Shown here: piece by piece, positions 22,730 to 25,159 of the stretch
Position numbering within the stretch: position 1 is the first letter of the stretch
Layout: every line of letters starts with the position of its first letter
Made by a program: the position numbers and the translations under genes
The notes under the pieces: model-generated
Told to the model about the DNA's origin: nothing
The model's database searches: none
Seen by the model: only the letters and a program-made list of their open reading frames with translations
Assembly: GCA_902773055.1 (NCBI GenBank)
Contig: CACYCZ010000017.1
Span: forward strand, 1 to 45,721
DNA length: 45,721 bases
Reading direction: 5' to 3'
DNA from: an uncultured Bacteroidales bacterium
GTDB taxonomy: Bacteria > Bacteroidota > Bacteroidia > Bacteroidales > Bacteroidaceae

Positions 22730-23018
22730 TTTCCTTTGTTGTCAGTGTCGCATAACTTCTTGTCTGGCGATTTTTAAAGAAAAATGAAAAAAAGAAGTCA
22801 TGTGAAAAATCCAGGAAAAAGATATAGATGCCGGACCTTTTCGCTTTAAAGCGAAGGTGAAAGTGTCGGCCGTGTTATTAGAGGGAAACAAAGTTGATTG
22901 TAAGGGTTGTTAATGAGAATAGGAAAAATCAGTTGTTTTACCTTTTAGACTGATTTGGCATCTATATAAATGAAACGTCTTTGCAATACAGAAAGAAATA
23001 TTGATTGATAATATAAAA
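22730..23018 (+). other. Leader region of the UGSC-like gene
   Basis: No gene is seen in about 290 bp. It contains a perfect 16-bp palindrome, TTCGCTTTAAAGCGAA (22840-22855), and a weak promoter: TTTG at 22954-22957, 18 bp, CGTCTTTG at 22976-22983, which departs from TAnnTTTG at the first two bases. Confidence 0.5.
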
Positions 23019-25097
23019 ATGATGACAATGATTTATAAGAAATTTTTTATGGTTGCAGTCCTGATGGGTTGCTCGCTTGCAGCCTTAGGCCAGGGCGAAA
23101 GATTTGAGTGTGATGATTCTTGTGATCCCGGGGCTGCGGGCATCGCAAAGTTTAATGTGGTCAGTCCTGTAGGGTTCTCTACAGTTGAACCTATAAAGAT
23201 GGCTCCTCGCTTGGAAACACTCGACGGAAAGACTATTGCTATCGTGGGAGAGGATTTTATGTACAATATCACTCACCCGGAACTGCGGCGCCTTATCAAG
23301 GAGCAGTATCCCACAGCTAAAGTTATTATGTATGATGAACTGCCGATAGCAGGTCCCTATCCGGCTCCAGGCATTACAAGGCCGTCTACCGAGCAGTTCC
23401 GCCAGCGGCTCATAGACCTCAAGGTTGATGCTGTCATAGCAGGCAACGGAGGCTGTGGCATCTGCACCCCGAAGGAGACAGGCTCCTGCATTGTTGCAGA
23501 GAAACTGGGTATCCCTTCGGTCATTGTGACAGCTCCGGGATTTGATGAAGAAGCACGTTACACAGCCAATAATAATGGCGTGCCCGTGCTGAGGGTAGCA
23601 GTTTATCCCGGTGCTTTTGCTTCACATACAGAAGAACAGCTTATAACCAATACCCGTGACATAACGTGGCCTCAGATAGTGAAGGCGCTTACTACGCCTA
23701 TAGAGGCTGAAGAATATGCATCTGCTGAAAAAGCAAAGGGTATATCGGATGACGTGTTCCATGGGACAATAGATGAAATATATGCTCACTTCAAGAGCAT
23801 GGGTTGGAGTGACGGTGCACCCTTTAATCCGCCTACCTACGAGAGTGTGTTGAAATATCTGGATTATACAGACTATGCATGGGATGCTACCATCGCCGTG
23901 TTGCCTGCAGCATTCAGGAACACCACTACATGGCATGTGGCAGTCAATGCCTGCATGGCTGGTTGCAAGCCGGAATATATGCCTATACTTATCGCCATGA
24001 CCAAGGCTATGGCCGGTGGTGACTTCCGCCGCACACTGGGCAGTACTCATGCCTGGGTGCCGTATTCCTGGATTAACGGACCTGTTGCCCGTCAGTTGGG
24101 TATCAGCAGCGGTCAGGGCGAAATCAATGCAGAGGCTAATGCGGAACTCAGCCGTTTCATGACATTGGCTCTGATGAATCTGGCAGGATACTATGTCGGG
24201 CAGAACCGTATGGGTACTTTCGGCTATCTTCAGCCATGGTGCCTGGTCGAGGATGAAGAAGCATGTCAGCGTGTTGGCTGGCAGACATGGAACGAACAGC
24301 AGAATTATAGCATTAACGACAATACTGTTACGTTGTCGTCAGCACTGATGTGGGGCAACAATATGGCACCGTCAACAATTGACCCGGAGAAAGTCATGCA
24401 GCTCATGGCATGGGATATTTCTGAGCGGTGCCAGTTTGCACTGGGCAGCGGAAAGCAATTTACCAATCGCGTGACGCTTATGACAGAACCTGTAGCCAGT
24501 ATCCTGGCTGGAAAATATCCTACTATTGATAATCTGGAGGATGTCTTGATTGATGCATCGCGCCGCTCGGCTTATGAAAAGGCTTTTGCCAATTACTATG
24601 CTAATGCCGGCAGTAGGAAAGATGGCGAGGAGCATACTTTCAATCAGTACCTGAGCCATATCGTAGATGCAGAAGGGGGAATGCAGACCTCTACGCCGAT
24701 ATGGTATGACACAGAGGAAACAACGATGGTAACTGTTCCTACTATGGAGAAAGGTGCTACGGCATTCCTTATAACCGGTGATGCATCGCGCAACAAGGTA
24801 CAGACAATGCCCGGTGGCGGTTTCTCAACTGTCAAGATAGAACTTCCTCAGAATTGGGATAAACTGATGGAGGAGAAAGGTTATCCTGCCCTGGAATCAT
24901 TGTATCTTACACCTACACCAGACAAAGGAGGTGCTGCTGCAGTAAAGAATGTCAAAGCCTCAAAGCCATCGCTGCGCACTACGGAGTATTATGACTTATC
25001 AGGCAAGCGTACTGGAAATCCACGCCAAGGAGTATATATACAAAGAAATGTATATAAGGATGGCTCAGCCAGGTCACAGAAAAGATATTATAGATAA
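23019..25097 (+). CDS. Secreted UGSC-like fusion protein, function unknown
   Basis: This 692-residue exported protein starts at the ATG at 23019 (the frame opens at a TTG at 23001, and 23022 or 23028 are also possible). After a signal peptide (cleavage near LGQG; a lipobox reading around LMGC is less likely), residues about 45-215 resemble the UGSC (seleno)protein family: VDAVIAGNGGCGICTPKETG has Cys146 and Cys149, both ordinary Cys codons, followed by EKLGIPSVIV. Residues about 246-600 form a second domain (FKSMGWSDGAPFNPPT, VAVNACMAGCKPEYMP, YSWINGPVARQLGISSGQGE), like proteins I recall next to UGSC genes in other bacteria. The tail (YDLSGKRTGNPRQGVYIQ) is the kind seen at the ends of secreted Prevotella proteins. 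Reaction unknown. It is alone between its own leader and a strong terminator. Confidence 0.7.
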   Translation: MMTMIYKKFFMVAVLMGCSLAALGQGERFECDDSCDPGAAGIAKFNVVSPVGFSTVEPIKMAPRLETLDGKTIAIVGEDFMYNITHPELRRLIKEQYPTAKVIMYDELPIAGPYPAPGITRPSTEQFRQRLIDLKVDAVIAGNGGCGICTPKETGSCIVAEKLGIPSVIVTAPGFDEEARYTANNNGVPVLRVAVYPGAFASHTEEQLITNTRDITWPQIVKALTTPIEAEEYASAEKAKGISDDVFHGTIDEIYAHFKSMGWSDGAPFNPPTYESVLKYLDYTDYAWDATIAVLPAAFRNTTTWHVAVNACMAGCKPEYMPILIAMTKAMAGGDFRRTLGSTHAWVPYSWINGPVARQLGISSGQGEINAEANAELSRFMTLALMNLAGYYVGQNRMGTFGYLQPWCLVEDEEACQRVGWQTWNEQQNYSINDNTVTLSSALMWGNNMAPSTIDPEKVMQLMAWDISERCQFALGSGKQFTNRVTLMTEPVASILAGKYPTIDNLEDVLIDASRRSAYEKAFANYYANAGSRKDGEEHTFNQYLSHIVDAEGGMQTSTPIWYDTEETTMVTVPTMEKGATAFLITGDASRNKVQTMPGGGFSTVKIELPQNWDKLMEEKGYPALESLYLTPTPDKGGAAAVKNVKASKPSLRTTEYYDLSGKRTGNPRQGVYIQRNVYKDGSARSQKRYYR

Positions 25098-25113
25098 TGC
25101 GAACTAAGGGTAA

Positions 25114-25159
25114 AAAACATGTAGGGGAAGGTCAAAAGACCTTCCCCTACATGTTTTTA
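25114..25159. terminator. Bidirectional terminator, perfect 21-bp stem
   Basis: Arms 25114-25134 and 25139-25159 are exact reverse complements around an AAAA loop. The stem starts with five A and ends with five T, so it works in both directions, between the convergent UGSC-like gene and proA. Confidence 0.93.

Follow-up and report, generated by a model that had tools for sequence, protein, structure and literature searches.

A predicted exported UGSC–partner fusion protein of Bacteroidales that may act as a thiol-driven envelope reductase

The window, a stretch of 45,721 nt from an uncultured Bacteroidales bacterium, carries a complete gene for a protein that joins a UGSC domain to a domain encoded elsewhere beside UGSC genes. 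We tentatively read this fusion, with somewhat less than even confidence, as an exported single-chain UGSC/partner thiol-driven reductase of the envelope that stands under an ECF stress sigma factor. The computed observations are the two domains, an export-type N terminus, a set of invariant cysteines, a promoter motif common to the fusion gene and an ECF operon, and TrxB genes near half of the plasmid relatives. The features of the gene, in window coordinates, are as follows.

22938–22962, + strand: putative promoter of ECF type, 56 bp ahead of the ATG; it reads TTACCTTT-N12-GCATC and departs from TTAACTTT-N12-GCATC at one position
23019–25097, + strand: UGSC–partner fusion gene, complete, 692 aa, predicted exported (ORF, Pfam match, relatives)
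23019–23090, + strand: signal-peptide-like N terminus, about residues 1–24 (hydrophobic segment in 79/79 relatives; model helix 2–23)
23109–23123, + strand: N-terminal arm with Cys31 and Cys35 (CDDSC)
23157–23693, + strand: UGSC domain, residues 47–225 (PF24696 and NF041046 matches)
23454–23465, + strand: CGIC motif, Cys146/Cys149, with Cys146 at the UGSC Sec position (codons, alignments)
23736–24914, + strand: partner domain, residues 240–632, about 390 aa (profile, structure model, alignment of 22)
23964–23966, + strand: Cys316 within AGCKPEYMP, kept without exception by the 79 exported proteins and by 22 partner domains, fused and split
24915–25094, + strand: optional C-terminal tail, residues 633–692 (model, tail count, sorting-domain scan)
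25113–25158, no strand: perfect inverted repeat of 21 nt that resembles a terminator and separates the fusion gene from a convergent one (proA by eye)

The open frame at 23019–25097 gives 692 aa counted from the ATG at 23019, and an alternative in-frame TTG start lies upstream at 23001. Searches of Pfam and NCBIfam placed the N-terminal half in the UGSC family, as the original prediction had proposed, and found no stronger or rival family for it: PF24696 matched residues 47–225 with E 7.1e-19 and 69 bits (curated cut-off 25) over profile positions 2–171 of 172, that is, over the whole domain. The predicted numbering of Cys146 and Cys149 was also right, the codons being TGT (23454–23456) and TGC (23463–23465). 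The U/CxxC site reads CGIC in the window protein and CGxC in each of the best 80 GTDB loci, and neither the window nor these loci carry an in-frame TGA at the Sec position. Like the UGSC family defined by PF24696 and NF041046, the protein thus has the whole domain and CGxC at the UGSC site, but it is fused, predicted exported and carries Cys instead of Sec, and its 45.5 bits against NF041046 miss the equivalog cut-off of 125 by far, which marks it as a divergent UGSC member. It is the single UGSC copy of its genome. In the Global Ocean Sampling set UGSC ranks with the most abundant families of selenoproteins (PMC2398784), and a 2026 review places it with the selenoproteins that have largely uncharacterised functions.

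The C-terminal half had been predicted to resemble the usual neighbours of UGSC genes, and the searches bore this out. A fused-family profile, run on 12 sequences to which its E-values apply, scored 116–130 bits against five haloarchaeal partner proteins and 18–29 bits against three separate UGSC proteins, and tblastn of 72,556 plasmid records with just the C-terminal half as query gave E values down to 3e-22; the domain is homologous to proteins encoded beside UGSC genes. The C-terminal part matched zero families of Pfam and NCBIfam at E ≤ 1, and no family recurred among the 22 partner domains scanned, whose alignment holds 11 invariant columns, Cys316 included. Structure prediction, which had been suggested for both halves, yielded a partner-domain model (pLDDT 85.4, pTM 0.88) and a full-length model with pLDDT 82.1 and pTM 0.77, but no confident fold match. 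The best Foldseek row for the partner model was a fumarate hydratase at E 0.029 with TM 0.23; at these values we assign no known fold with confidence and count the row as no match. For the full-length model, one row fell below E 0.001, a MetH fragment with TM 0.16, and the remaining rows were weak, many of them Rossmann- or flavodoxin-like among the best 50 of 1,325. Against PDB sequences, the whole family and the partner domain had no match at E ≤ 1 (one chance row reached E 1.4), and the UGSC domains drew five weak rows, the best at E 0.012.

These searches bear on a different reading, in which the protein is a disulfide oxidoreductase or peroxidase of thioredoxin-like type and serves to repair proteins of the envelope that have been oxidised. 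Such a protein would carry a CxxC motif, as this one does; a Trx-like fold was supposed in the 2008 paper (PMC2398784), and glutathione peroxidase, flavodoxin and rubrerythrin genes lie near some copies, as judged by eye. Thioredoxin families are nevertheless absent from the Pfam and NCBIfam matches of 31 UGSC domains, and no thioredoxin chain occurs in the best 50 of the 1,325 Foldseek rows, which are weak throughout; we consider this reading improbable.

The fusion gene is patchy yet not singular. A scan of GTDB contigs gave at least 568 relatives, the best 80 of which all come from Bacteroidota, with many MAGs of rumen or gut origin among them, and have both halves fused. In genome samples, UGSC rose above the cut-off in 6 of 399 genomes of the window's family and in 1 of 395 at both class and phylum level, the window's own genome each time; within the 395 Bacteroidota genomes both halves occur in that genome only, and elsewhere there is one 34-position partner match (E 2.8e-4). 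Three of 41 neighbourhood genomes, the window's own included, encode the protein, the other two being G017 (80% identity) and G004 (60% identity, without the C-terminal tail), and a fourth match consists of the tail alone. Viral contigs and phage records contained zero relatives, and a virus or phage origin of the gene was rejected on this ground. Of 20 plasmid loci taken from 24 matched records, 19 carry the two parts, either fused or side by side. On a Haladaptatus plasmid (L154:6977–7984) the partner gene is present with no UGSC match in the stretch examined.

This survey of fused and split forms disposes of the outcome in which the halves never occur together. The joint function that the original prediction drew from the fusion is likely, as a thiol-dependent one. 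The fusion is real, but UGSC joined to an unknown conserved domain (Unknown_1) was already reported in 2008 among selenoproteins of the Global Ocean Sampling set (PMC2398784). The fusion alone is therefore not new. The Unknown_1 fusions resemble the window protein in that each joins UGSC to an uncharacterised conserved domain; they are described, in the parts available, with mention of neither export nor regulation.

Haloarchaea carry UGSC–partner gene pairs or partner–UGSC–partner triplets; in L087, L091, L104 and L151 two partner paralogues flank a single UGSC gene. Fused cytosolic forms occur in Variovorax, Vibrio and Sporomusa. The plasmid pairs of haloarchaea, Arthrobacter, Roseovarius, Variovorax SRS16 and Paracoccus have domains homologous to those of the window protein, and such relatives share with it the partner cysteine at the Cys316 position (22 of 22 aligned partner domains) and the CGxC cysteines of the UGSC site (29 of 31 UGSC domains, those of Vibrio and Sporomusa lacking both), whereas they are encoded as separate genes, often near TrxB. 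The N-terminal cysteine pair of the window protein sets it further apart, being found in 0 of 6 UGSC-bearing cytosolic proteins checked (three split, three fused). In a tree of the 22 partner domains, in which long branches were flagged, the exported proteins form a single clade (100/100) and the fusions of Vibrio and Sporomusa are nested among split forms, below branches of middling support (92/90 and 88/87); on that placement, fusion or fission would have happened more than once. Two Paracoccus plasmids (L152 and L098) encode a Sec-type UGSC, with a TGA in GLAN*GSC, directly 5′ of the partner gene, and in L152 selB lies about 3.3 kb downstream. In its annotation the Sec-type gene at L152:6387–6956 is split into two short ORFs.

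The Vibrio and Sporomusa fusions (L092:7761–9446 and L093:7773–9497) adjoin aconitase X and DUF126 and retain the partner cysteine with both UGSC cysteines gone. This is what would be expected if catalysis lay with the partner domain, as a non-redox lyase, isomerase or hydratase, and the UGSC part served to bind the substrate; we give that reading little chance for the window protein, as all 79 exported proteins keep Cys146 and Cys149 and the UGSC site is Sec-coding in Paracoccus.

TrxB homologues were found in 10 of the 20 plasmid UGSC/partner loci and none in the other 10, a raw count in which two of the ten positive loci supplied queries and the L098 match lies about 5 kb away. They scored above the curated cut-off in L099, L101 and L102, the first-named threshold being missed in L089, L090 and L091, and L101 also has TrxA above its own cut-off. 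The gene order is trxB–trxA–partner–UGSC in Arthrobacter and partner–UGSC–trxB in Roseovarius.

The UGSC domains also show a weak, recurrent profile match around UxxC to component B of glycine, sarcosine and D-proline reductases. Among 31 UGSC domains, 20 of them near relatives, matches at E ≤ 10 numbered 18 for GrdF, 17 for PrdB, 15 for GrdB and 11 for selenoprotein-PB (best E 6.8e-5, 8.6e-5, 1e-4 and 4.9e-4, respectively), and every NCBIfam model other than those for UGSC and component B matched at most 2 of the 31. When proteins were checked singly, six of ten had a component-B match at E 0.0027–0.085 and four had none at E ≤ 0.1. The window protein differs from component B in having no PF07355 match and no recognised pyruvoyl partner and in being predicted exported. 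PF07355 (GRDB) matched 0 of the 31 UGSC domains at E ≤ 10. In whole genomes it matched 0 of 149 Bacteroidales, but the control genomes likewise gave no match, and the scan does not establish absence. Of 22 partner domains 0 matched a GrdE/PrdA-like pyruvoyl proprotein, a model whose presence in the scanned NCBIfam set is unconfirmed. We treat the kinship as a lead and not as membership, with common descent possible. In the component-B enzymes known so far, reductive C–N cleavage goes together with the oxidation of a dithiol (PMC10298544), and for a rumen bacterium it has been proposed that a GrdB-like operon cleaves the C–F bond of fluoroacetate (PMC10838667). In the available portions of the UGSC literature the family is tied neither to thioredoxin genes nor to component B or control by an ECF factor.

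We aligned 79 fused proteins, namely that of the window and those of 78 of the 80 best GTDB loci, with L026 and L067 omitted as cut or broken copies. In L067:1430–2797 the gene stops early and the next ORF carries on the partner domain, indicating a broken or frameshifted copy or an assembly error. All 79 have a hydrophobic N terminus that resembles a signal peptide (start codons were set by rule and a hydropathy rule stood in for a dedicated signal predictor), in agreement with the predicted location outside the cytosol. The arm that follows has at least two closely spaced cysteines in all 79, and in the full-length model it has block pLDDT values of 47 (residues 21–30) and 53 (residues 31–40). 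A lipoprotein reading was dropped, the RFEC up to Cys31 being at odds with a lipobox. Cys31, Cys146, Cys149 and Cys316 are each present in 79 of 79 exported proteins; Cys35 in 68, Cys157 in 76, Cys408 in 78 and Cys416 in 77. The C-terminal tail, which had been noted as Prevotella-like and as a further sign of export, does exist in the window protein, but it is optional (30 of 79) and a sorting role finds no TIGR04183 (T9SS type A sorting domain) match in it; in a scan of four tails L086 was the sole match.

The motif TTAACTTT-N12-GCATC stands upstream of both ECF and UGSC genes. With up to two mismatches it was found before 37 of 81 UGSC genes (first-order Markov shuffles, 1.25), 14 of 23 ECF genes (shuffles, 0.1) and 11 of 555 control ORFs (shuffles, 4.9), counts that are partly circular in that the core was derived from the UGSC and ECF upstream regions jointly. 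It also precedes 23 of 59 UGSC genes unlinked to an ECF operon (shuffles, 0.91); at these the spacer was 12 in 20 cases, 11 in six, and each other spacer from 5 to 20 occurred 0–1 times. The exact motif has 18 sites in 12 genomes, nine of which were picked for exact motifs at the UGSC gene, against 0 for the backward control, and 16 of the 18 lie before a UGSC or ECF gene. The other three genomes (G000, G017 and G004) hold four exact sites, three at the ECF operon and one elsewhere. Of the two stray sites, one precedes an exported protein with a carboxypeptidase-regulatory-like start in G017 (by eye) and one, in G434, precedes no long ORF. In the window's genome the ECF operon, with an exact site, is on contig C31, away from the fusion gene, and TTAMCTTT-N12-GCATC, in which M was chosen to admit the window's own site, has exactly two sites, before the ECF gene and before the fusion gene; once one mismatch to the motif is allowed, the count rises to 22, compared with 11 for the backward control. 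G017 and G004 likewise have one-mismatch sites at the UGSC gene and exact sites at the ECF operon. Judged from sequence, the fusion gene and the ECF operon thus appear to share a promoter motif with the same spacer. By eye, exported carboxypeptidase-regulatory-like proteins are preceded by an exact motif in G017 (L158) and by a one-mismatch motif in G000 (L134), and may possibly be further members of the ECF regulon.

In 17 of 77 loci (the 80 minus three without an ORF table) the surroundings of the UGSC gene include both an ECF sigma gene and an LTXXQ/Spy-like gene, in divergent, upstream and downstream arrangements; ten of the 17 (the L070–L083 group and L086 being excepted individually) are partly near relatives, so the 17 are not independent. 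The ECF gene matches Sigma70_r2 with 55 bits (cut-off 24), the LTXXQ matches stay just under their cut-off (22.9 and 21.8 against 24.3), and the putative anti-sigma factor is named from gene order and a sub-cut-off DUF4179 match. Each of thirteen genomes has 1–4 LTXXQ-like copies, and the second, weaker LTXXQ/Spy-like gene of the window's genome is preceded by a one-mismatch motif (L142, G000:C89:6264–6288).

CnrYXH-type systems offer a model for an ECF/anti-sigma/LTXXQ operon that senses metal. The fusion could by analogy be a metal- or metalloid-handling envelope protein whose cysteine pairs bind a soft metal sensed by the operon, a reading that we hold to be rather unlikely. Conservation of eight cysteines, each in 68–79 of the 79 exported proteins, would suit it, as would the LTXXQ-like protein (22.9 bits against 24.3) beside the ECF gene and the metal-related genes seen by eye near the single copies L050, L051 and L079; but the cytosolic relatives sit amid catabolic and thioredoxin genes, and no recurrent metal gene was seen by eye in the 40 largest neighbour clusters.

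In the reductase that we prefer, Cys146 at the Sec position would be the nucleophile acting on a small substrate, which the partner domain, with Cys316 and invariant Asp, Arg, Glu and Asn, would hold or activate, and Cys149 would resolve the Cys146 intermediate. Electrons would come from a dithiol, in the cytosolic relatives probably thioredoxin/TrxB. TrxB is cytosolic, which rules out a direct feed to an exported enzyme and counts against the reading; the Cys31/Cys35 arm may replace the thioredoxin relay and be fed by some periplasmic thiol protein. Expression would be switched on by the ECF sigma factor, encoded with the putative anti-sigma factor and the LTXXQ/Spy-like periplasmic protein, in response to some stress. 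The invariance of Cys31, Cys146, Cys149 and Cys316, the Paracoccus TGA site, the TrxB linkage, the component-B matches and the promoter motif argue for this reductase. It is weakened by component-B matches that are weak singly, by the missing PF07355 and GrdE/PrdA matches, by the ten of 20 plasmid loci without TrxB and by the Vibrio and Sporomusa fusions that have lost both UGSC cysteines; ECF control is weakened by the 22 against 11 one-mismatch sites, the operon's place on another contig and the soft anti-sigma name.

A more specific picture, which we think doubtful, is of a component-B-like thiol reductase moved out of the cytosol, its Sec/Cys subunit fused to a substrate subunit without a known fold, its own dithiol arm standing in for thioredoxin. 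In gut and rumen Bacteroidales this reductase would be what its own ECF sigma factor chiefly controls, and it would reductively disarm a toxic small molecule in the envelope. The UGSC family gains from the analysis a partner domain whose Cys316 position is invariant, a genomic context of thioredoxin genes and a possible component-B kinship, and a Cys-only, predicted exported UGSC form with its own stress-type promoter is now described. As only a single protein, a single regulator and a few key cysteines are concerned and selenium machinery is not needed, its reaction is testable.

No operon partner is universal in Bacteroidales, and by eye the Na+/alanine symporter gene upstream in the window is not a recurrent neighbour in the loci inspected. 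The convergent stretch past 25113–25158 looks by eye like proA, proB, an acyl-CoA synthetase gene and proC. In L036, L039, L041, L017, L028, L053, L013 and L021, genes for glutathione peroxidase, flavodoxin/FMN reductase, flavin reductase and MarR-like proteins were seen by eye near the fusion gene. A cluster of nine loci, L078 and eight others, has a gene directly downstream in the same direction, which in L078 (10110–11105) encodes a dockerin and an FGE-sulfatase domain.
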